From positions 1 to 64,000 of the forward strand of contig JAFXUD010000042.1 of NCBI GenBank assembly GCA_017535315.1: a stretch of DNA of 64,000 nt, written 5' to 3'. A program made the position numbers and the translations under genes. The stretch is from Victivallales bacterium (GTDB taxonomy: Bacteria > Verrucomicrobiota > Lentisphaeria > Oligosphaerales > Oligosphaeraceae). Position 1 is the first letter of the stretch, and each line of letters starts with the position of its first letter. The notes under the pieces were generated by a model that was not told the DNA's origin, did not search any database, and saw only the letters and a list, made by a program, of their open reading frames with translations. Below are positions 4,668 to 60,442 of this stretch, in pieces.

Positions 4668-4698
4668 GTTTCCGTTCCATCGCTTCCATCGCTAACAA
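4668..4698. repeat. Short TTCCATCGC tandem repeat
   Basis: About 30 bp between the ABC ATPase and permease genes consist of TTCCATCGC-type 9-mers. The same unit fills the long array at 60.3 kb. It occupies the place where a ribosome binding site for the permease would be expected; none is obvious there. Confidence 0.6.
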
Positions 4699-6482: not shown

Positions 6483-8350
6483 TGAATAGCCTGTTTGTGA
6501 CCGCTGCCATTTTCTTCCAGTTTTGGATGCCCATCTGGGAGGCTCGTCCCTTTGTGACTAAAGACCTTGCGTATGAAGCACGCCCTGTGATGGAGGAGAA
6601 GATGCTTGCGCCCATATCGGAGACGCTGAAGGTTGCGGATTCGCGTCTGCGCGGCGAGCTCTATGTTGCCTTGGCGGCGGCTCCCATCAGGGGAAACCAG
6701 CAGTTCCTGCTGGAGAAGTGCCTGCCTGCGGAAAAGGACGAGTTCCTGCGTGCAACCATCCTGCGGCAGATTGCCCGCATGGAGCCGCAGTCGATTCCCG
6801 CTGCCGCGATTGCGCCATACCTCAAGGAGACCTCCTTGCAGGTGGTGTTGGCGGCCATCCAATTGTATGGGAAGTTGCCCGATGCGGATCCGCGCCAGCT
6901 CGTCGGTTTTCTGGGCACGCCCGATGGAAAGGGAGGCCAGGAACTGCTGAGCCTGAAGTTGGCGGCATGGCGCTGCTTTGCGGAATCTCCACGCCTCGCC
7001 AACACGCTTGGCTCCAATTTCCTCACCTTCAAGGAGGCTTCGCCTCTGGAACTGCGCGGCCTCGTCCTGAAGACTGCTCTGGCACAGCAGAAACGCAAGC
7101 CCGAAACCACCGCCTGGCTCAAAGAGCTCTTGCAGGGACCCATCGCGATGCGGTTGATTGCCGCCATCGACGCCACGCCTGCCGATTTTGCTATTGCCGC
7201 AAAGTACCTTCAGGACAAAGAGCCTGCTGTTAGGCAGGTGGTTTGCGACACCGCACGTTTGCCTGGCTTTGTGGCTGTCCTGCCAGCCGCCCTCGGCGAC
7301 AAGGAGCCTGCGGTGCGTGTGGCGGCACTTCAGGCGCTGAAGCGGTGCTGTGAAGCACCCGATGAGGGGCTGCTCCGTCGGATTATGGCACTATTTACGG
7401 ACACTTCCCATCTCGTGCAGGAGGCTGCAGAGGAGACATTTGTCTATCTGGCAGGCAAAAATGGCAGTGCGCTTGCTTTGCTGGAGACGGCATTGTCCCC
7501 CAATAGTGCGCCTGACGCACACCGCCACGCGGCTAATGCTGCGCGTCTGCTAAAGGGCTATCGTCTGACGCCATCTATCGCATTGCTTTTGAAGGACGAG
7601 AAGTTGCCAAATGCGATTGCCGCTGAACTGGACGCAATTGCGCACCTTGCGAAAAACGGTGAATACGAGGTGGATGTGATGCCATTCACGCGACATGCGT
7701 CGCACTTGGTGCGCAGAATGGCCGTGCGCGTCATTGGACGACTGCAATACAAGGGACAGGAGGCGGAGGTCATTCGCCTCGCGAAAGACCGCACCGCCAC
7801 GGATGTCTGCATCGAGGCATACGAGGCGATGGGCCGTTTTCCCCAGCCAGTTTTCATTCCGACGATTATGGCGTGCTTGAAGGCACCTGGCAAGACTCTT
7901 TCTGAGGAACGAGCCTCCGCTCTCTGGGCGCTGGGTTACATCCAGCCTGTGACGCAGGAGGACAAGGCGCATTTCGCGGAGGCTGTCGAACGTCTGCGCA
8001 TCCACGCCACAGTGGCCATTGTTCCGACGGATGTTGGTCCCGCCTTCGAGGATGAGTCTGTAATAGCCAACGCGATGTATTCCCTGGGAAAGATTGCCAA
8101 GCGACAGGAGACACCAGAAGAGCAGCGAAATCACGCCAACTACGTGATTTCCCTCTACGATGTTTCACCCGAAAAAGACCGTGAGCTTCAGGACCAGGCC
8201 ACGGCTGCGGGCAAGGGACCAGGCGAAGTGCCACGCTCCGCCGTCACCTGGAGCCTTGCGCACCAACTGCGTCAATGGTTGGACGGCAGGCAAATCGAGA
8301 CGCAACCCATCCCCGACGTCACCTTGAGTTTCCCTGTCAAGGGGTTGTGA
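6482..8350 (+). CDS. Exported HEAT-repeat-like protein
   Basis: This 622-residue protein begins with a hydrophobic signal-like segment (residues 4-20). It continues as many alpha-helical repeats of about 35 residues, such as DKEPAVRQVVCDTARLPG and DKEPAVRVAALQALKRC near 240-300, typical of HEAT/PBS-lyase-like solenoids. Such scaffolds bind proteins rather than catalyse. The start ATG overlaps the permease stop, so it belongs to the same translational unit. It probably sits outside the membrane beside the 787-residue protein. An upstream in-frame opening reaching 6161 lies inside the permease gene and is not used here. Confidence 0.72.
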   Translation: MNSLFVTAAIFFQFWMPIWEARPFVTKDLAYEARPVMEEKMLAPISETLKVADSRLRGELYVALAAAPIRGNQQFLLEKCLPAEKDEFLRATILRQIARMEPQSIPAAAIAPYLKETSLQVVLAAIQLYGKLPDADPRQLVGFLGTPDGKGGQELLSLKLAAWRCFAESPRLANTLGSNFLTFKEASPLELRGLVLKTALAQQKRKPETTAWLKELLQGPIAMRLIAAIDATPADFAIAAKYLQDKEPAVRQVVCDTARLPGFVAVLPAALGDKEPAVRVAALQALKRCCEAPDEGLLRRIMALFTDTSHLVQEAAEETFVYLAGKNGSALALLETALSPNSAPDAHRHAANAARLLKGYRLTPSIALLLKDEKLPNAIAAELDAIAHLAKNGEYEVDVMPFTRHASHLVRRMAVRVIGRLQYKGQEAEVIRLAKDRTATDVCIEAYEAMGRFPQPVFIPTIMACLKAPGKTLSEERASALWALGYIQPVTQEDKAHFAEAVERLRIHATVAIVPTDVGPAFEDESVIANAMYSLGKIAKRQETPEEQRNHANYVISLYDVSPEKDRELQDQATAAGKGPGEVPRSAVTWSLAHQLRQWLDGRQIETQPIPDVTLSFPVKGL

Positions 8351-8354
8351 GGGA

Positions 8355-8572
8355 GTAGCGACGACGGCTCGCTAATGCTCCTGAATTAACGTCTAATGAG
8401 ACGGGAGCGACGGGAGAGACGGGAGCGACATAACGAAGTACTTGATGCCATTTCGCTGTCCCTTCCGTGTCTTCCGTGTCTCCCGTGTCTCCCGTGTCTC
8501 TCGTCCCTTCCGTCTCTCCTGTCCCTCCTGTCCCTTTCAGGTTAGGAGTATTAGTGTCTCGTCGTCGAGAAA
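8355..8572. repeat. Family A copy 2 with terminal inverted repeats
   Basis: The outer ends are imperfect inverted repeats of about 27 bp (8359-8386 and 8541-8567) carrying CGACGACG...CTAATGCTCCT. Inside is a short left arm of GACGGGAGC-type 9-mers and a longer right arm of TGTCTCCCG-type 9-mers (about 8455-8535). The middle shares GAAGTACTTGATGCCAT with copy 1. The ends make it look like a non-autonomous mobile element (MITE-like); no target duplication is evident. Apparent open frames through it encode only repeat-derived peptides. Confidence 0.75.
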
Positions 8573-8615
8573 CATGCCCACTCCCCAATGTTATGCCGCA
8601 CCGAAGGATAATCCT

Positions 8616-10430
8616 ATGTTGACAGACGACCAAGCCAAAACCTACCTAAAGAGAATCTTGTTTCTGGATTCTCCATTGCATGGGCTATTGCTGGTGTTCA
8701 GCCTGTGGTTTATGTGGGCGCCCGTAACGTTTTGCCTTGTCTTTTGCAAACTGTGCGGAGCTTCTTTTGAGGAAAGGGCCTACACCGCTTTTCTGTTTGC
8801 CGTCGTTGTATTCTGCGTACTTGTCATCTTGACTGCGGCAGCCAGTTATTCCATGGCCAGTTGGATAAAGGGAAGCAAGCCGTTTCGAATCTTTTCCTGC
8901 CTCTTCCTATCACTGTTTTGGGGATTGCTGGATTTGATTCTGCTGGTCGAGTGTTTTTGCAAGAAGCGTCTTTGGTCGTCGTTAGCGCTGCTTTTGGGGG
9001 CATTCGGTTTGTTCGCGCTGAAAGTCGTTTCAAAGTTTGTCCTGCTCAGATGGGTTGTCCGTTATGATACGGAATTGTGGATATGCTTCTATCTGCTGGC
9101 GGCGGCATCGGTGCTGATAGCCACTGGCTTGAGGCCAATTAGACGTACGCTTGTCGCCATAGCCCCTGCTGTCGTGGGAGTGGTTGCCATTCTCCTGCTT
9201 CATGTTCATTTCAATGCTGTCCGCCAATCCAATGCTCATTTGCGCAAGGATATCTCCGAATTGCTTGGGCGTTCTATCGAGATGGAAGAAGTTAGGAAGC
9301 GCATTGAGAGTGGCACGCCGCTTGATGTAGAGCCGCTGGCCAGTTGGATGAAGGCAGAGATTTCGAATAATCTTGATGTGTGGGAAGGTCAAACCTTTAA
9401 GCTTGAGAAGAAACGGGAGGCATTGCAGACTTTTATCGCTTCCAATTCCGAGTTTGTGGAAGCTGTTCATGCCTTAGCGTTGCAGCCTCTCCAGAAAGTG
9501 GCTCATTCGCTTAAGTGGGACGATGAGCCAATCGCCGCGCTTAAACTGCCTGAACTGGCCAAGTGTCGAGAAGCCGCTCGCTTTCTCTCATACGAGATGA
9601 TGGCGAATCCCCATGACAGAGAACTGGTGCGAAAGGACAATCAGGAAATAATTGCCCTTCGAAACATGCTTCTTCAAGGAAATACGCTTATTGAGAAGAT
9701 GGTTGCACTTGCCATAGAAAGTTTGAGAATAACAGCGCTCTGCGATACTCTTGGCAATTCCACCTATTCCGAGGAGGAGTGGAAAAAACTTCTGGAAGAT
9801 GAGGTGGATTGGATGCGCCAGTTTGCCTACGCCATGGGCGATGAAGCATACGCTTTTCAGGACAATTTGCTGTGGACGCTCAACCACGAGGGCGGAATGA
9901 AGGAGATGCTTGGGGAGGATAGATTGCCATACTTGCCTGCAGGGTTCATGCGGCTGTTTTTCGAGAAGGATTACAACTATGCCTTGCACTATTATAGGAG
10001 AATCATTGAAACCATGCTGTCGGAAAAACTCGATCACAGCGTTCTTGAAAAGATTGACGAGGAAGTCTTGGGCGTTGTGCGGAAGCACGGTGCCATTTTC
10101 TCTGCCATGCTGCTTCCTGCCATGTCAAAATGCGTTCAAAAGGCCGACCAGGGCAAAGACAAAAGACGGATGGCGATGCTTGCCTGGCAGGTGGCAGAGT
10201 ACAGGCAACGCAACGGACGCCTACCCGAAGCACTCACGGAGGTCTCAAGCGACCTTCTCGACAGCATTCACCAGAAGCCATTCATCCTTGAAACAGGCAT
10301 GCTCAAGGTCAAGATGAAAAAGGACGAAGTGGAGATTTTTGGCTTCCGAATCTCTGCCTGGCACGATGATTCCGAGACAGTACTAAACAGAAACGCCCCC
10401 AAGGTACTTGTGCCACTTGCGAAGAAGTAG
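8616..10430 (+). CDS. Membrane protein with long cytosolic-type C-terminal part, unknown
   Basis: This 604-residue protein has about six hydrophobic segments within residues 20-205 and then a mostly helical, charged part of some 390 residues. I recognise no catalytic motif. ATG 8616 is chosen because AAGGA lies 7 bp upstream; the longer opening to 8442 runs through a 9-bp repeat array and would add an Arg/Ser/Val-rich, repeat-derived peptide. The family A element separates it from the ABC operon, so shared transcription is uncertain. A second element follows its stop, before the convergent glycosidase-like gene. Confidence 0.6.
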   Translation: MLTDDQAKTYLKRILFLDSPLHGLLLVFSLWFMWAPVTFCLVFCKLCGASFEERAYTAFLFAVVVFCVLVILTAAASYSMASWIKGSKPFRIFSCLFLSLFWGLLDLILLVECFCKKRLWSSLALLLGAFGLFALKVVSKFVLLRWVVRYDTELWICFYLLAAASVLIATGLRPIRRTLVAIAPAVVGVVAILLLHVHFNAVRQSNAHLRKDISELLGRSIEMEEVRKRIESGTPLDVEPLASWMKAEISNNLDVWEGQTFKLEKKREALQTFIASNSEFVEAVHALALQPLQKVAHSLKWDDEPIAALKLPELAKCREAARFLSYEMMANPHDRELVRKDNQEIIALRNMLLQGNTLIEKMVALAIESLRITALCDTLGNSTYSEEEWKKLLEDEVDWMRQFAYAMGDEAYAFQDNLLWTLNHEGGMKEMLGEDRLPYLPAGFMRLFFEKDYNYALHYYRRIIETMLSEKLDHSVLEKIDEEVLGVVRKHGAIFSAMLLPAMSKCVQKADQGKDKRRMAMLAWQVAEYRQRNGRLPEALTEVSSDLLDSIHQKPFILETGMLKVKMKKDEVEIFGFRISAWHDDSETVLNRNAPKVLVPLAKK

Positions 10431-10443
10431 CGTAACCCATCAG

Positions 10444-10604
10444 CGATTGATATAAGCGACGACGAGACGCTAATGCTCCTAACTAAAAAGGGACATGAGG
10501 GACAGGAGGGACGGGAGGGACAGAGCAAAGTTCCTAACACAATTTGGCTGTCGCTCCCGTCGCTCATGTCCCACCCATCCCTTTTAGGGGAGCAGTCTCA
10601 CGAA
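10444..10604. repeat. Family A copy 3 between convergent genes
   Basis: CGACGACGAGACGCTAATGC...CTAAC (10457-10483) matches the ends of copy 2 at about 25 of 27 positions. It is followed by GGGACAGGA-type 9-mers, a short loop, complementary GTCGCTCCC-type units, and an imperfect inverted end (10582-10604). It lies between two convergent genes, where a bidirectional terminator would be expected. It starts with CGATTGATATAAGC, also found at the edge of the family B copy at 38.57 kb. Confidence 0.75.
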
Positions 10605-10617
10605 CAGGTCCAAACCT

Positions 10618-13242
10618 TTACTCCACCACTTCGAACACGGCGATTTCGTTCCAGTCGTCGAGCTTGACGATGGCCTGCCAGGCGCCTGGGGTACCTGTGA
10701 CGGTGATGTTAGAGGCGTCGGTGGGTATGCCGTAGCGGTTGAAATGGGCGATTTTGGGTTTGGCGTTGCCGCCCAGCTTGAAGGTACCAGAGATAACGGT
10801 GATGGTGCGCTCCTTGCCAGTCATCACGCCTTCGTCAATGCGGACGGGGGTGAAGGGGAAGAGCCAGTTGGCGACCTCGAAACTGCCCGCGTCGGGACCA
10901 GTCAGAGGTTGGGTAACTCCGTAGTAGTAGGGGAGCTGTGCGTTGCGGATGGCGGTGATGATGCCCTTGTTGAGGATGAGGGCACGCTTGTCCTGCTCGC
11001 CTGGCTGCGGGGTCTGGTAGCGTCCAGGGCGCAGGTTCAGGATGATGGGGGAGGTCAGGTGTCCGAGGGACTGGTAGCGGAATTCGGGGGGCTTTCTGTC
11101 AAGGAAGGGGAGGGGATTGCAGGAGTCGTTTTCCATCTCGGCGAAGCTAAGGCGTCCGCAGCTTTGTTCTTCGCGTGTGACGGGGTGTCCGTTGGTGAGG
11201 ACGTATTTGCCTGCGGAGGTGATGCGTTTGATGATTTCCATGCGGGCGGGGGAGCCGACGATGGCGTAGTTGTAGTATTTGGAGATGATTTTGCCTGTCT
11301 CATCCAGGACGACGCTGACACCGTCCCACTTGTCGTAGCTGATTCCGTCCTTGTAGGTGGGGTTGAACTGGTCGATGTAGATGCCGTCGAACTTGATTAT
11401 CTCCAGCAGGAAGTCAATCTGCTCCATCATCTGCTTGAAGCGGTAATTGCCTGGGGCGGGCTGTGGCATCATATTGATGAATGGCTTGTTGACGTAGGTG
11501 TAGTAACCGTCCATCATCACGTTTCCGTCCTTGTCGCAGAGGAGCGAATCGGCCATGGGGGTGGCGGCTTTCAATTTGGCGGAGAGTTCTGGCGAGAGGT
11601 AGAGACCGTATTTGGAGTTCGGGTGCTTGCGGTCGCCGTAGCCAAGTGGGAGCTGGTCGCCCCATGGGACGGTGCGCGCGTCGAATTTCACGAGGTTGGT
11701 CTCGATAAGGGCCATCAGGATGATGCCAGGGTAGTTCTTGCGCTGCTCTTCGATGACGGGGAGGACTTTGGCGCTGTATTCGTCACGGGTAAGCTCCTGT
11801 CCGTTGGAGTACTCGAACCAGGGGCCGACGCATGCGAAGCGCGGCTTCAGTCCAGGCAGATCCTTGGCACTGAAGAGGAAGGGGCCAGGGATGGTATCGT
11901 TGACGTTCCAGTCTATGCGCAGGCGGTTCACGAAGTCGAAGTAGCCGATATTCGGTGCCTGGAGGGGATAGATGCTCCATTCGATGGTGAGGGAGTTGCC
12001 TGGACCGATGCCGACGCCAGTGTTGCCCATCACGAGGGCGTTTCCCTGGAGTTGCATATTGATGAGGATGCGGCTGACGGTATCCTCTGCAACGATGCCC
12101 GCCGCGCATTCTCCGTCGGAGATATAGATGGTCGGGTTGGAGGCTGCCAGTACGCTGGCGCTTTCGCAGTTGGAGAGGCCTGCCAGACGCCATCCTGGGG
12201 CGGGCATCCTGTTGTCGAAGGCGGCCTCGTTGCGCCAGAGCAGTCCTCGGTCTTCCGAACCGAGGTTGGTGAAGGTATCGGTGACGCGGATGAAATGGCC
12301 CTTGGAAGCAATGACGCGCTTCAGTGTCAAGTCGGGGGTGGTCATTTCGACAACCACATCCTGGCCTTGCTGGGAGACCTTTGCCTGGATGCCAGGCATC
12401 CCTGTCACACTGTCAAGCGCCAGGCGGTTGTATTTCATAAAGGGGGATGCTGGATAACTGAAAGAGGATTCAAAATAGAGTTTGCGGTTTTCGCCCATCT
12501 GCAACTCCATGCCGCCGTAGGGTGAGACGTTCAGTTGGAAATTGTCGCCCTTGATGCTTCCCGCGGCGCTTTTTAGTCCCTCCGTCTTCCAGAATTTGAT
12601 GCCTTTCAGGGGGAAGAGTTCAGCGGTGGGGACGTAGCCCAGTTGGATATCCTTGGCGACCAAAGGGAGGTCAACGATGTGCTTGGACAATGCATTGAGG
12701 AAGCGGAATTTGTTCGGAGCATTGTTTTCAATGCGGTCGTCGGCACCGATGATGAGCTTGCTGACCATGTCATCCACATCGAAGTAGTATTCATAGCCAT
12801 ACTGGCTGTCAAGGATTTGGGGATTATTCTTCGTTTCATTTTCTGGGGCGAAAATGGTCAGCAGGAGGTTGTGCGAGCCTTCCCTCCAGTAGGGTACTAG
12901 TTTTTCGCGCGGATGAGTGGTGTGCATGATGGGGCCGCGCAGAAGGAGACGCGGGGTACCATTCGGGGCGGAACGGTTGATTTCATGGTCGTTGAGTTCG
13001 ATGGCACTCCAGTTGTTCCAGCCGCCAAAGGATTTGCAACCCATACGTAGATTGACCTTGAGCACGACGGATTTTCCAGGCTTCACAGGAACCGCTGGAA
13101 GCTGGACAACATCGGAGTAGGACTCAGGCTCGCCAGCAGGGACAATAACCTTTTCTATGGCGGGAAAGGCGGGTTCGAAGGGAATTTCCACTGCAAAAGC
13201 CAGTGAGGTGAGGATAATAGCGAGTAGAACGCGAATTTTCAT
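10618..13242 (-). CDS. Secreted glycosidase-like protein (TIM-barrel type), unassigned
   Basis: This 874-residue protein has a signal peptide (1-18). The first half is beta-rich (about 20-470, carbohydrate-binding-like). The second half looks like a (beta/alpha)8 hydrolase, with FDGIYIDQFNP near residue 620 and LTNGHPVTREE near 685, patterns typical of glycoside hydrolase barrels. A beta-rich end follows. Acid and nucleophile residues cannot be assigned by eye, and I do not place it in a numbered family; DUF6259-like proteins are a possible relation. ATG 13242 has AAGGA five bases upstream; longer openings run over the RNase HIII gene. It likely cleaves polysaccharide outside the cell. Confidence 0.65.
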   Translation of the reverse strand: MKIRVLLAIILTSLAFAVEIPFEPAFPAIEKVIVPAGEPESYSDVVQLPAVPVKPGKSVVLKVNLRMGCKSFGGWNNWSAIELNDHEINRSAPNGTPRLLLRGPIMHTTHPREKLVPYWREGSHNLLLTIFAPENETKNNPQILDSQYGYEYYFDVDDMVSKLIIGADDRIENNAPNKFRFLNALSKHIVDLPLVAKDIQLGYVPTAELFPLKGIKFWKTEGLKSAAGSIKGDNFQLNVSPYGGMELQMGENRKLYFESSFSYPASPFMKYNRLALDSVTGMPGIQAKVSQQGQDVVVEMTTPDLTLKRVIASKGHFIRVTDTFTNLGSEDRGLLWRNEAAFDNRMPAPGWRLAGLSNCESASVLAASNPTIYISDGECAAGIVAEDTVSRILINMQLQGNALVMGNTGVGIGPGNSLTIEWSIYPLQAPNIGYFDFVNRLRIDWNVNDTIPGPFLFSAKDLPGLKPRFACVGPWFEYSNGQELTRDEYSAKVLPVIEEQRKNYPGIILMALIETNLVKFDARTVPWGDQLPLGYGDRKHPNSKYGLYLSPELSAKLKAATPMADSLLCDKDGNVMMDGYYTYVNKPFINMMPQPAPGNYRFKQMMEQIDFLLEIIKFDGIYIDQFNPTYKDGISYDKWDGVSVVLDETGKIISKYYNYAIVGSPARMEIIKRITSAGKYVLTNGHPVTREEQSCGRLSFAEMENDSCNPLPFLDRKPPEFRYQSLGHLTSPIILNLRPGRYQTPQPGEQDKRALILNKGIITAIRNAQLPYYYGVTQPLTGPDAGSFEVANWLFPFTPVRIDEGVMTGKERTITVISGTFKLGGNAKPKIAHFNRYGIPTDASNITVTGTPGAWQAIVKLDDWNEIAVFEVVE

Positions 13243-50208: not shown

Positions 50209-50295
50209 AGTGGTGTTCCTGTTGGTTTTTATGTGAAAGATTGTGGAAGACAGTTCCTTGGGTGATTTGATTGTTGCGGTTACCCCCGTTTTTCG

Positions 50296-50315
50296 ACGAC
50301 GTGGCCGTCGTCGTT
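50296..50315. terminator. Hairpin after PHP-like gene
   Basis: CGACGACG/CGTCGTCG forms an 8-bp stem with TGGC loop and then an A-rich/T-rich end. It lies just after the stop of the PHP-like gene. A partial terminator before rhaA is possible. Confidence 0.45.
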
Positions 50316-51713: not shown

Positions 51714-51800
51714 AAAAGACGGGCGGGACAAGCGGGACAAGCGGGACAGAACAAGGTGCTGTCGCTCTTGTCGCTCTCGTCGCGCCCGTCCTTTTACGCA
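51714..51800. repeat. Family A copy 4
   Basis: GACAAGCGG-type 9-mers (51719-51746) face TGTCGCTCT-type units (51760-51795) around the short loop GAACAAGGTGC. Terminal inverted repeats as in copies 2 and 3 are not seen. It lies between an EF-G-like gene and the PHP-like gene. Confidence 0.7.
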
Positions 51801-51882: not shown

Positions 51883-53904
51883 CTATTCCTCGTCCTCGTC
51901 TTCGGCGGCCATGGCAGCCTGGATCTTGTCGGCAATGGCCTTTGGAACGGGGTCTCTTCTCTCGAACTTCATTTCGAAGGAACCGCGTCCCTGGGTCATG
52001 GAGCGGAGCTGCATCGGGTAGCTATAGACCTCGGCCAGCGGCACTTCCGCGTTCACAACCTGGAGACCGTCTTCGCGGTCCATGCCGAGGATGCGTCCGC
52101 GGCGCGAGTTCAAGTCGCCAGAGATGGCACCCATATAGACTTCGGGGAAGATGATTTTAAGTGTCATGATTGGCTCAAGCAGCATCGGTTTTGCCTTGGC
52201 CATGGCATCGCGGAAGGCACGGCGCGTCGCGATCTTGAACGCCATTTCAGAGGAGTCAACGGGGTGGTATTTGCCATCAAAGACGACCGCCTTGAAGTTG
52301 GTGACCATGGAGCCTGAGAGCGGTCCGTTCAGACGGGTTTCGTTGACGCCCTTTTCAATGGCGGGAATGAAGTTCTTGGGAATGTTGCCGCCGACGACTT
52401 CGCTGGCAAAGACGAAATCAGGCTCGCCTTCAGCGGGCTCGTAGGGCTCCAGCCTCATCTGGACTTCGGCGAACTGGCCGTGGCCACCAGACTGCTTCTT
52501 GTGGCGATAGACGGCGGAACCCGTCATGGTGATGGTCTCGCGGTACGGAATCTTCGGGGTTTCAAGGGTCACTTCCACCTTGGATTCGTTCTTCAGGCGG
52601 TCAACGATGAGGTTGATCTGCTGGTCGCCCATGCCGCTGAGAATGGTCTGCTTGGTCTCTGTGTCGCGGACGATGCTGATGGTCGGGTCTTCAGCCGCCA
52701 GCTTGGCCAGGCCCTGCGCCAGCTTGTCCTCTTCACCCTTCTTCGTGGCGGAGGCTGCATAGATGGTGGTGGGCTGCGGATAGACGATGGCGGAGAACTT
52801 CGCGCTGACAGGCTTGCTGCCTAGTACGTCGTTCAGACCTGTATTCTTCAGCTTGGCGATGGCGATGAACTCGCCAGGCCCCGCGTTTTCGACGACGGCC
52901 TGGTCCTTGCCTTGAATCTGGAGCAGGTTGCCGATGCGCTCGTTACCAGACTTGGTGCTGTTCACCAGTTCGCTATTGGAGGCGAAGGTGCCGCTGATGA
53001 TGCGGATGTAGTTCATCTGGCCAATGAAGGAATCGTTGACGGATTTGAAGACATAGCCGACGGAATCGGCTGCGGTACGGTCGATTTCGCCTTCGTCCAG
53101 GCGGAACGGAACGGGGTCGAGCGGTGTGGGGCCAAGTTCCATGATGGCGTCCATCAGTTCGGCAACGCCGATGTCTTTGGCAGAGCTGCCGCAGAAGATG
53201 GGGAAGAGTTCACCAGCCATGAGGCCTTTGCGGAAACCCTTGACCAACTCTTCGGCGCTGAGTTCGCCTGCATCGAGGTACTTCTCCATGAGCTCCTCGT
53301 CGCTTTCCGCAATGGCGTCGGTAAGTTCCTGCTTGTAGTTGGCTGCGTCACCCGATGCATCGTCGCTGAGGACCTTGGAGACGGCGGAGAACTGCGCCTT
53401 TTCACCGACGGGAACCGTGCAGGGGATGCATTTGGTCTTGCCATAGCTTTCGCGAAGGATCTCGACGAGACCAGCGACGTCGGCTTGGTCGCGGTCGCAG
53501 CCGTTGATGAAGATCATGCGGGGGAGTTTGCGCTCTTCCGCGTGCTTCCAGGCGCGGATGGTGCCAGGGCCAATACCGAGGTTGGCGTCAATGACCAGAA
53601 TCATCATGTCAGAGATGTTGATGGCATTGATGGCTTCGCCGCAGAAGTCGGAGTTTCCAGGAGTGTCCAGGAAGAAGAAGTGGCCGTCCTTCCAAGGGAG
53701 GTGGAGAACGCTGGTGTAGATACTGCTCTTCTTTTCCTGCTCTTCCTTGCGGAAGTCAGAGACGCTGGTACCATTGTCAACGCTTCCCTGGCGCCCGACT
53801 ATGCCAGCCTTGAACAGCATCAAATCCGCAAGTGTTGTCTTTCCAGAACCTGCATGGCCAGCCAATACAAAATTTCTAATCTTTTCGGGTGCACAGTTTT
53901 TCAC
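51883..53904 (-). CDS. EF-G-like translational GTPase (EF-G2 type)
   Basis: This 673-residue protein has G1 GHAGSGKT (16-23), G3 DTPGNSDF (80-87) and the five-domain layout of elongation factor G, including VTLETPKIPYRETIT near 430. G4 reads NGCD (134-137) instead of NKxD, so the guanine-contact lysine is absent. It is shorter than canonical EF-G (about 700) and matches the EF-G2/EF-G-like group that can act in ribosome recycling or stress. Start codon is GTG with GGAG eight bases upstream. It stands after the isc genes. Confidence 0.88.
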   Translation of the reverse strand: MKNCAPEKIRNFVLAGHAGSGKTTLADLMLFKAGIVGRQGSVDNGTSVSDFRKEEQEKKSSIYTSVLHLPWKDGHFFFLDTPGNSDFCGEAINAINISDMMILVIDANLGIGPGTIRAWKHAEERKLPRMIFINGCDRDQADVAGLVEILRESYGKTKCIPCTVPVGEKAQFSAVSKVLSDDASGDAANYKQELTDAIAESDEELMEKYLDAGELSAEELVKGFRKGLMAGELFPIFCGSSAKDIGVAELMDAIMELGPTPLDPVPFRLDEGEIDRTAADSVGYVFKSVNDSFIGQMNYIRIISGTFASNSELVNSTKSGNERIGNLLQIQGKDQAVVENAGPGEFIAIAKLKNTGLNDVLGSKPVSAKFSAIVYPQPTTIYAASATKKGEEDKLAQGLAKLAAEDPTISIVRDTETKQTILSGMGDQQINLIVDRLKNESKVEVTLETPKIPYRETITMTGSAVYRHKKQSGGHGQFAEVQMRLEPYEPAEGEPDFVFASEVVGGNIPKNFIPAIEKGVNETRLNGPLSGSMVTNFKAVVFDGKYHPVDSSEMAFKIATRRAFRDAMAKAKPMLLEPIMTLKIIFPEVYMGAISGDLNSRRGRILGMDREDGLQVVNAEVPLAEVYSYPMQLRSMTQGRGSFEMKFERRDPVPKAIADKIQAAMAAEDEDEE

Positions 53905-56833: not shown

Positions 56834-56993
56834 AATTTGCGTTGAACAAAAAAACTACTAATTCAGTAGTTGATTTAAAAGACAAGAACCAATAAAGGAG
56901 AATGAAGCGATGAAGAGATGTCGAATGAATGGCGAGCAGGGTGAGTTTCGTGTGAATGGCAACAAGTCGGTTTTGAAAATTGGAGAAGGCATT

Positions 56994-57830
56994 ATGAAGA
57001 AAAGCAATTTTGTAAGGGCGAGCATTTTGGTTTTGGTGATTTGGGCAGTTGGCGCGGTGCATGGCGGCGTGCCCTTGAACAGTCTGGACGGGACGGGCGG
57101 CATAGCGTTCAATCCGCTGGCCTTCACATCGGGTCTGGATATCGAAGGGAACGAGTGGATAAGCAAGCCGCAGATTGGCGCATGGTATGTGCAACTGTCG
57201 GAGAGCAACATCAAGTGGAGTTCCTACAGTCTGTCGCTGAGCGTCGCGAAGCGAGTCGAGCTAAGCTATGCGTTCAACCTGGTCAACGCGAAGGACTATG
57301 GCGACAACAACATCGAGGCGAACACGGTGGGCCTGAAGATCCGCCTTCTGGACGAGAACGCCTTTGATTCCAATTGGGTGCCCGCAGTTGCCATCGGTGT
57401 GAAATACCGCCACACGGACAGCAACACCACTGACCTTTTCGGGCTTGACGATGCTGGCTTCAACTATTATATTGTAGCAAGCAAACTCATCACGCAACTG
57501 CCCTTGCCTGTGCTGGTTTCGGCTGGCGTGCAGCGCAGCGACGAGGTGGTCTATGGCGTGGTCGGGCACAACCACTACGGCACGGGGGTGTTTGCGAACA
57601 TCGATGTGCTGCCCAGCGAGAACGTGGCCATTGGCGTGGAATACCGCCAGGGCGTCAAGGTCGGCGACGGCATCGAGAATGCGGACTACTGGAACGGCCA
57701 CGTTGCCTGGTTCGTGACCAAGCAGCTCACTCTGGTAGGCGCCTACGTGAACACGGGCAATAAGGACAAGGGATTTGGCGACCTCGGCGTAGGCGACGGC
57801 TTCGTCCTGAGCGCACAGTTCCAGTTCTAG
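56994..57830 (+). CDS. DUF3034-like outer-membrane barrel protein
   Basis: This 278-residue protein has a signal peptide (about 1-24) and a barrel-like chain of alternating strands ending in aromatic FQF. The start GGVPLNSLDGTGGIAFNPLA (near 25-44) matches what I recall of DUF3034 proteins. Function unknown. GGAGAAGG precedes ATG 56994; an in-frame ATG at 56910 would add a hydrophilic stretch before the signal, so it is not used. The stop lies in a 7-bp repeat that ends just before cysK. Confidence 0.75.
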   Translation: MKKSNFVRASILVLVIWAVGAVHGGVPLNSLDGTGGIAFNPLAFTSGLDIEGNEWISKPQIGAWYVQLSESNIKWSSYSLSLSVAKRVELSYAFNLVNAKDYGDNNIEANTVGLKIRLLDENAFDSNWVPAVAIGVKYRHTDSNTTDLFGLDDAGFNYYIVASKLITQLPLPVLVSAGVQRSDEVVYGVVGHNHYGTGVFANIDVLPSENVAIGVEYRQGVKVGDGIENADYWNGHVAWFVTKQLTLVGAYVNTGNKDKGFGDLGVGDGFVLSAQFQF

Positions 57831-57961
57831 TGGTTAGTGGTTAGTTAATTAGCTATTAGCAATTAGCAAACTGACCACCGACCACCGATAACCGCCCACT
57901 GACAACTGACAACTGACAACTGACAACTAACTAACCACTAATCACTAACCACTAATCACTA
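57829..57961. repeat. 7-bp-period tandem array, about 19 units
   Basis: The stretch is readable as consecutive 7-mers: AGTGGTT twice, then AGTTAAT, TAGCTAT..., CTGACAA four times, and ACCACTA/ATCACTA alternating to the end. The left AGTGGTTAGTGGTTAG complements the right CTAACCACTA. It contains the stop of the upstream gene and ends at the cysK ribosome binding site. It resembles STRR heptamer repeats known in cyanobacteria. Confidence 0.9.
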
Positions 57962-57974
57962 AGGAGAAATGACC

Positions 57975-58980: not shown

Positions 58981-60267
58981 ATGACCGAAAATACCAAACA
59001 ATACAGATTTGACACCATCGCCGTGCATGGCGGCTGGAAGGGCGACCCCGCCACCGATTCGACCGCAGTCCCCGTGTACCGCACCACGGCCTTCAACTTC
59101 CAGAACGCGCAGGACGGCGCCGACCGCTTCGCACTCAAGAAGGCCGCCAACATCTATGCGCGGTTGATGAACCCCACGGAGGACGTTTTGGAGAAGCGTC
59201 TGGCGGCTCTGGAGGGCGGTGTGGCCGCATTGGCGCTCTCCTCTGGCACGGCTGCCATCTACTTCTCCGTGACCAACATCGTGGCCACTGGGCAGAACTT
59301 GGTTGCCGCCTCCAACCTCTACGGTGGCACCTACACCCAGTTCGACGCCATCCTGCCGCAGAGCAACAACATCCACGCCAAATTTGTGAAGGTCAATGAC
59401 TTCGCCGCAACCGACGCTGCCATCGATGCCTACACGCGCGCCATCTTCGTGGAGGCCATCGGCAATCCAGGGCTGGATGTCGCCGACATCGAGGGCTACG
59501 CAGCCGTTGCGAAGAAGCACCACCTGCCGCTCATCGTCGATGCCACCTTCGCCACTCCCGCCCTTGAGAGCCCGATTAAGTATGGCGCGAATGTGGTCAT
59601 CCACTCGCTCTCTAAGTGGATTGGCGGACACGGTGCGGGCATCGGCGGCGTTGCCATCGACGCAGGCAACTTCGATTGGACCGACCCGAAGTTCTCGCTC
59701 TACAACGAGCCTGACCGCGGCTACCACGGCATCGTCTGGTCAACGCTTGGCGCAGCGGCCTTTGCCACACGCCTGCGGACTGTTGCCCTGCGCAACCAAG
59801 GGCCGACCCTTTCGCCTGATGCCGCGTGGATTTTCTTGCAAGGCGTGGAATCGCTGCCGCTCCGCATGGCTCGCCATTCGGAGAACGCGCAGAAGGTGGC
59901 GGAGTTCCTGGCTGCCCACCCGAAGGTGGCGTGGGTGCGCTATCCAGGCTTGAAGGATGACCCATCCTACGCGCTGGCGCAGAAGTATCTGCCTGGCGGC
60001 AAGGGCGGCATGGTGGTCTTCGGTGTCAAGGGCGGCGCAGCGGAAGGCAAGGCCGCCGTCGATGGCCTACAGCTCTTCCTGCAACTGGCCAACGTCGGCG
60101 ATGCGCGCAGTTTAGCCATCCACCCCGCCTCCACCACCCACTCGCAGCTTAGCGAGGAGCAACAGCGTGCGGCGGGGCTCGCACCCGAGCTCATCCGCCT
60201 CTCCATCGGCATCGAAGACCCGCAGGACATCATCGACGACCTTGCGCAGGCGTTGGCGGGGATCTGA
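58981..60267 (+). CDS. metY: O-acetylhomoserine sulfhydrylase
   Basis: This 428-residue PLP enzyme of the Cys/Met metabolism family joins sulfide and O-acetylhomoserine to homocysteine. The PLP lysine is about Lys211 in HSLSKWIGGHG, with YARLMNPT near 60 and ALSSGTAAI near 86. The length marks it as MetY rather than MetB/MetC. AGGAG precedes the ATG. With cysK it forms a direct sulfhydrylation pair. Confidence 0.95.
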   Translation: MTENTKQYRFDTIAVHGGWKGDPATDSTAVPVYRTTAFNFQNAQDGADRFALKKAANIYARLMNPTEDVLEKRLAALEGGVAALALSSGTAAIYFSVTNIVATGQNLVAASNLYGGTYTQFDAILPQSNNIHAKFVKVNDFAATDAAIDAYTRAIFVEAIGNPGLDVADIEGYAAVAKKHHLPLIVDATFATPALESPIKYGANVVIHSLSKWIGGHGAGIGGVAIDAGNFDWTDPKFSLYNEPDRGYHGIVWSTLGAAAFATRLRTVALRNQGPTLSPDAAWIFLQGVESLPLRMARHSENAQKVAEFLAAHPKVAWVRYPGLKDDPSYALAQKYLPGGKGGMVVFGVKGGAAEGKAAVDGLQLFLQLANVGDARSLAIHPASTTHSQLSEEQQRAAGLAPELIRLSIGIEDPQDIIDDLAQALAGI

Positions 60268-60282: not shown

Positions 60283-60442
60283 ACAAGCGATAAAAGGGAT
60301 AAAAGCGATGGAAGCGATAGGGCCTGGGGCTTTATCGCTTCCATCGCTTTTATCGCTTCCATCGCTTTTATCGCTTCCATCGCTTTTATCGCTTTTATCG
60401 CTTCCATCGCTTTTATCCCTTCTGGTATCGCTTTTATCGCTT
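60283..60442. repeat. 9-bp-period array of TTCCATCGC/TTTTATCGC
   Basis: A short left arm (GATAAAAGC, GATGGAAGC) and a long right arm of TTCCATCGC and TTTTATCGC units, twelve or so, are reverse complements around GGGCCTGGGGC. The unit also occurs at 4.68 kb. It follows the metY stop. Frames through it give only low-complexity peptides. Confidence 0.88.

Follow-up and report, generated by a model that had tools for sequence, protein, structure and literature searches.

Repeat copies in the window

The window, that is, the whole stretch of 64,000 nucleotides analysed here, starts at base 1 of contig C80 of the MAG G000, which has 4.9 Mb in 96 contigs and is 95.6% complete. The best named relatives of the EF-G-like protein encoded at 51883–53904 come from Victivallales, Oligosphaeraceae, and further Lentisphaeria MAGs, which assigns the window to a Lentisphaerota MAG. 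Tandem arrays of 9-bp units with complementary arms were located by direct reading and TRF at 1–92, 8400–8532, 10489–10581, 51723–51783, and 60285–60442. An earlier note on this DNA had described them as an intergenic, hairpin-forming repeat family of one design; all five full copies were confirmed, and the description was borne out genome-wide. The RNA folds of the five copies were better than all 200 dinucleotide shuffles (z −6.1 to −9.5). In the genome about 100 such hairpin-shaped repeats, built of 9- or 7-letter tandem units, lie just downstream of genes. Rfam at gathering score gave a tRNA as the sole match in the window and no family for the hairpins.

The full element at 8360–8566 on the forward strand starts 10 bp past the stop codon at 8350. 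Outer CGACGACG palindrome arms and the inner ends TAATGCTCCTGA and TTAGGAGTATTA enclose a purine-rich 9-mer arm of three units of GACGGGAGC/A (8400–8429), the conserved core ACATAACGAAGTACTTGATGCCATTTCGCTGTC (8428–8460), and a pyrimidine-rich complementary arm (8460–8535) which exceeds the purine arm in length (z −7.7 for 8358–8569). The copy at 1–101, its left end truncated by the contig start, is an array hairpin with a core (GACAGAGCAGC...GCCGCTGTA) lying 3′ of gene 119–1159 on the reverse strand (z −9.5; covariance model match at C80:3–82). The element at 10454–10600 on the forward strand has an outer CGACGACGAGACG end, 9-mer arms, and a core also matched by the covariance model (z −8.3 for the copy at 10444), and it sits between the convergent genes 8615–10430 (forward) and 10618–13242 (reverse). 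An array hairpin without the core lies at 51714–51800, 3′ of the reverse-strand EF-G-like gene (z −6.1), and its position is kept in the sister species G001. The copy at 60283–60442, an AT-rich variant (GATAAAAGC/GATGGAAGC) with three units on the left and nine formula units on the right, begins 16 bp beyond the stop codon of the forward gene 58981–60267 (z −9.2). A small piece at 4668–4698 had been listed as a further copy. It does hold two 9-mer units of AGCGATGGA (4677–4693, reverse strand), but it lies as a single-arm fragment in a 34-bp gap between genes and no complementary arm for it was found.

Two kinds of array had been overlooked. A hairpin of a sister class with 7-bp units (TTAGTGR, AACTGAC) occupies 57826–57965 on the forward strand (z −5.0); gene 56924–57830 has its stop codon in the first TAG of this hairpin, the start of which, TAGTGGTTAG, is kept in G001. 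CTAG-anchored 9-bp arrays (CTAGAAGCT, CTAGATTAT, CTAGACAAT) are found at 1169–1209 of the window and at C88:162042–162241 and C7:17540–17760; G001 has dozens of places like these, and comparable arrays occur in G012 and G028.

Periods, unit formula, and arms

Detailed reading covered 1.24 Mb of the one MAG, about a quarter of its bases. These were scanned without bias for tandem arrays of period 5–21 whose reverse-complement partner lies no more than 250 bp away. Such a partner was found for 36 of 45 arrays of period 7 and 40 of 65 of period 9, for 7 of 16 at period 14, which is a multiple of 7, for 2 of 12 at period 18, and for one array each at 19 and 21; none of the arrays of periods 8, 10, 11, 12, 13, 15, 16, 17, and 20 in the 1.24 Mb had a complementary arm. 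The reversed-arm control yielded two at period 7 and two at period 9. As the complementary arms are concentrated at periods 7 and 9, there are two hairpin classes and not one. The earlier note had named a restriction of the arrays to the window, or a lack of conserved complementarity between their arms, as refuting its description; neither was observed. The doubled unit GGGACGGGA (GGGACGGGA twice) occurs 508 times in the genome with up to two mismatches, compared to 2 times for its reversed control.

The 9-mers follow the formula GAY-NN-RAG-V, the ninth base being G in 63, C in 62, A in 43, and T in 1. The unit sequences had been reported to differ between copies; their letters do vary, but GACGGGAGN, GACAAGCGG-like, and GATAAAAGC units all fit this one formula. 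An exception is the left arm of the 51714 copy (GACAAGCGG), the right arm of which fits. Three consecutive formula units were matched 407 times in G000 and once in the control. They were also matched in 19 relatives, 18 of which belong to the same order, each of them with an NN preference of its own: the favoured unit is GACTCAAGG in G042 and G046, GACCAAAGG in G047, a CCGGAG-containing unit in G044, and GATAAAAGC in G001. For period 7, three consecutive TTAGTGR units gave 83 matches in G000 and 413 in G001.

The purine-rich arm comes first in all 27 period-7 hairpins and in 25 of the 31 period-9 hairpins (52 of 58 together). Five of the six period-9 exceptions pair neighbouring copies of the element, and the remaining one is a CTAG palindrome array. 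The purine-first order is identical on both strands; it therefore belongs to the element itself and does not follow the replication strand. At the variable NN bases the two arms of an element match each other in 0.853 of cases as compared to 0.722 for shuffled partners (p ≤ 0.001). The ninth base showed no such matching between arms (0.587 versus 0.558 shuffled, p = 0.34); it is paired in 57% of the folded copies, the conserved bases in 93–99%. The arrays differ in length by whole units. The suggestion that the length of the hairpins changes by 9-bp slippage has to be modified in that slippage is not matched between the arms, the unit numbers of which often differ (r = −0.05).

Core, element ends, and dispersal

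Most 9-bp copies share a core of about 30 nt, GACAGAGCAGAGTACCTAACGCAATTTCGCTGTC, despite differing arms. A covariance model of this core (R1) had at least 82 matches in G000, which give at least 75 distinct full-length copies after merging of strand duplicates. Relatives yielded at most 13 matches each, all under 45 bits, and their arms follow the same kind of grammar without the G000 core. The core alignment yielded 10 pairs in RNAalifold with no double change in any of them, and hence no covariation support.

Directional ends, TAATACTCCTAA... and TCAGGAGTATTA, are seen in a subset of copies. Clear paired TAATACTCCTRA ends were present in 5 of 38 core copies, one of these being the interrupted copy described below; single or decayed ends were seen in others. 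Elements with both ends recognised measure about 130–200 bp. In a few copies (8355, C1:23507, C78:105292) the ends are nested inside CGACGACG (CGACG) palindromes. A loose test for CGACG palindromes beside the core copies remained near background, with 12 of 38 on the left, 22 of 38 on the right, and 8 of 38 on both sides compared to 27%, 29%, and 9%; a convincing association is seen only in copies with a CGACG arm directly beside the element end. Six whole elements stand in tandem at C78:126150–126860. The core copy at C49:159574–159851 is split by another repeat with the ends GTAACTATTCAG and CTGAATAGTTAC and a GCAATT duplication. No clear target duplication of the 9-bp element itself was seen, an empty CGACG..CTAG..CGTCG site was looked for and not found, no autonomous copy bearing the ends of the 9-bp element was present in 864 kb, and no transposase for the 9-bp class was identified.

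A core of its own (GAGTGAATGCTGTTCTCCATAGGTGAATA) is present in the 7-bp class with AATTAGC units. Several copies of this class start with GTAATCCCTCACTGATTGA, an end which in G000 and G001 delimits repeats without arrays as well. Two unrelated sequence families are thus built on one plan of ends, arms of tandem units, and a core. The shared end GTAATCCCTCACTGATTGA occurs at C7:37538, C7:43924, C88:77128, C78:105053, C80:38558, and other places with differing interiors, which are AATTAGC arrays plus core in some and RAYT-type palindromes in others.

Position relative to genes

Genes were called with a purpose-written dicodon gene finder. None of 34 period-9 loci and none of 23 period-7 loci was centred in a gene. 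The statement that length changes would always be in frame has no meaning here, as the arrays are untranslated (0 of 57 loci). The median distance to the neighbouring 3′ end was 16 bp for period 9 and 3 bp for period 7, compared to 157 and 105 bp to the neighbouring 5′ end. A 3′ end lay no more than 60 bp away from 28 of 35 period-9 and 21 of 21 period-7 loci, a 5′ end from 6 of 32 and 10 of 24 (3′ versus 5′, p = 6e-7 for period 9 and 1e-5 for period 7). Selection against insertions into promoters could also produce this bias. An enrichment between convergent genes, apparent at first, was not significant in a larger set (p = 0.20). TTAGTGR hairpin arrays beginning at or providing a TAG stop codon were noted at 57826–57965 of the window and at C1:1811, C1:65661, C78:43044, and C78:115112.

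Termination and mRNA protection had been put forward as possible functions. Termination found no support, as a T-tract after the 3′ arm is absent in most copies and array-bearing gene ends are not more terminator-like than others: hairpins with a T-run occur at 4 of 32 period-9 and 1 of 20 period-7 array-bearing ends and at 38 of 384 other ends, and neither the 8355 nor the 10444 element showed a terminator-like site. mRNA protection is possible from the 3′-end position, but among codirectional cases the sense strand folded more stably in just 9 of 21 for period 9 and 7 of 15 for period 7, which lends no support to RNA-level selection on this strand.

Comparison with related genomes

The sister species G001 has syntenic contigs that are mostly 77–98% identical to those of G000. 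At five of the six sites readable in G001, an incomplete MAG which allows a comparison at the species level and has some of these sites at contig ends, the array is absent and short CGACG-type palindromes are present instead. These are the sites 8355, C7:51986, C7:59629, C78:118642, and C78:106406, with palindromes of the CGACGACG type. The two species thus differ at five of six readable sites, though other repeats occupy those sites in G001. The sixth site is that of the 51714 element, which is kept in G001 with a left arm shorter by one unit and with one stem pair changed on both sides from A-U to G-C, a compensatory change.

In G002 a different hairpin repeat lies in the intergenic stretch that follows the EF-G-like gene on its 3′ side. 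The regions directly 3′ of the 58981–60267 orthologues were read by eye. G000 has the 9-mer hairpin there and G002 a hairpin of 8-mers (CGCRRAGR); arrays of the 7-mer YWATGGC follow the gene in G028 and of the 7-mer AATTAAC in G026. G012 has an ordinary terminator at this place, and in G003 and G008 no array was evident.

Origin and maintenance of the arrays

With moderate confidence the arrays are regarded as non-autonomous, MITE- or REP-like interspersed palindromes with stems made of short tandem units (9 bp of the formula GAY-NN-RAG-V, 7 bp in the sister class), which are tolerated downstream of genes. The whole palindrome would spread in trans by transposition or recombination through some enzyme, the arms would then gain or lose whole units by replication slippage, and part of their complementarity may be kept by descent, another part by template switching or by selection that acts on the folded strand. 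The accumulation downstream of stop codons would mainly reflect removal of insertions elsewhere, and a role as mRNA 3′-end hairpin, if any, would be secondary. The MITE trait of dispersed short non-coding copies with a shared sequence is found in the at least 75 core copies. Recombination, which the earlier note had also considered, or mobility gains indirect support from the conserved core in so many places, from presence and absence between the sister species, from the tandem clusters, and from the nested insertions. As the arm grammar is shared by relatives that lack the core, the phenomenon as a whole cannot be explained by the dispersal of a single element.

It is unlikely that the hairpins are RNA structures under selection at the 3′ ends of mRNAs, protecting from 3′ exonucleases or terminating transcription in both directions, with arms kept complementary by selection. 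The strong 3′-end bias, the very stable folds, the matching of the NN bases between arms, and the compensatory change that kept the 51714 fold in G001 speak for such structures, and the quadruplex-capable repeats of Xanthomonas are enriched at transcript ends (PMC4692102). Most copies, however, lack the T-tract, the sense strand is not stabler than the antisense strand, the ninth base of the unit is left unmatched between arms and is often unpaired, the hairpin is absent at several sites of the sister species, and the convergent-gene enrichment was not significant. A pure slippage process in situ, by which 3′ ends acquire arrays de novo and the arrays obtain inverted partners by template switching with no mobile unit, would agree with the differing unit numbers of the arms and with the unrelated arrays at the 3′ ends of the 58981–60267 orthologues in G000, G002, G026, and G028. 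It is considered quite improbable in view of the core common to at least 75 places, the near-universal purine-first polarity, and the numerous complementary arms at periods 7, 9, and multiples as opposed to none at 8, 10, 11, and 13.

That the elements act as G-quadruplexes, the role proposed for the heptamers of Xanthomonas and Nostoc, is very unlikely. A G3N1-7 motif is present in 22 of 34 period-9 loci, but in just 6 of 23 period-7 loci and in none of the 8355, 60283, and 57826 copies, and AT-rich units retain the hairpin yet cannot form a quadruplex; this reading is weakened as the shared feature is the hairpin and not the G-tracts. We give hardly any credence to mobilisation as REPs by the RAYT (Y1 tyrosine) transposases of the genome. 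Three Y1_Tnp genes do exist (C78:90597–90938, C47:71592–71945, C58:17290–17631), each near palindromes of its own, but these palindromes differ from the arrays, being GTGGGT..ACCCAC at C78 and C58 and GCGCCCGCAAGGGCGC at C47, no 9-mer arrays stand around any of the three genes, and G014 has 36 formula matches and no Y1_Tnp match. The 9-bp elements were not found to flank a RAYT gene, the three RAYTs having their own REPs.

Relation to known repeats

Among described systems, the inverted GGGAATC heptamers of Xanthomonas and the P6b repeats of the Nostoc trnL intron come closest. Xanthomonas genomes carry about 70 inverted pairs of GGGAATC heptamers each, always convergent and near or overlapping stop codons (PMC4692102). 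Like these, the present arrays consist of short tandem units in intergenic positions with the purine arm first and with unit numbers varying between species, and tandem units, convergent inverted pairs, and proximity to stop codons are found in both; the 7-bp unit is not found in the 9-bp class. The Xanthomonas repeats have period 7, one nearly fixed unit, no reported conserved core, and a quadruplex interpretation, whereas a 9-bp period and a core are found here, and 83% of them stay in the same gene context between two genomes (PMC4692102), as opposed to the frequent turnover seen here. The P6b stem of the Nostoc trnL(UAA) intron is built of 7-nt repeats of class I (TDNGATT) or class II (NNTGAGT), and it shares with the present arrays the repeat-built stem, free unit positions, insertion and deletion of whole units, and unrelated classes swapping at one site (PMC4476775). 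It has period 7, however, and occupies a single place inside a group I intron (PMC4476775), whereas the arrays described here are dispersed. The TAACTGA heptamers of Beggiatoaceae, Cyanobacteria, and Bacteroidetes are likewise abundant intergenic short tandem arrays, but they are direct repeats, not hairpins, and stand mostly just upstream of start codons in the best-studied genome (PMC4679880).

MITEs and REPs, including GTAG/CGTC-tagged palindromes, are dispersed short intergenic palindromes with clustered and nested copies as well; tandem arrays do not make up their stems, which in REPs measure 5–13 bp (PMC3733652), and in the present case no dedicated transposase was linked to the repeats. 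One might also regard period-7/9 purine-first hairpin arrays at stop codons as a general bacterial class which arose repeatedly, in Xanthomonas, Nostoc, and several genera of this order, by a shared process preferring a length of 7 or 9, and in which the array at a given gene end is exchanged for an unrelated one; we hold this to be rather doubtful.

Literature on such repeats in Lentisphaerota was not found, and the 9-bp period, the unit formula with its free dinucleotide, the core, and the turnover appear to be new. With these results a little-studied type of repeat, the intergenic inverted array of short tandem units, is extended to a phylum new for it and to units of 9 bp, and a unit grammar is added whose free positions match between arms. 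Turnover is fast, the array missing at most readable sites of the sister species and unrelated arrays standing at one same gene end in other genera. The repeats thus offer a testable system for the questions of how palindromes with tandem arms come into being, spread, and retain their symmetry, and of why a period of 7 or 9 is preferred.

Other palindromic repeats

Short CGACGACG-N-CGTCGTCG palindromes were noted at 50294–50312 of the window, at C78:46116, and at C78:160557. Their density is 10.8 per 100 kb in the G001 contigs read, which were partly picked around such sites, and 0.5 per 100 kb in G000, a difference of about 20-fold. A palindromic repeat of about 155 bp at C78:110705–110864 (L162:10705–10864) has more than 20 copies of about 86–95% identity in G001 and is likely a recently active MITE.
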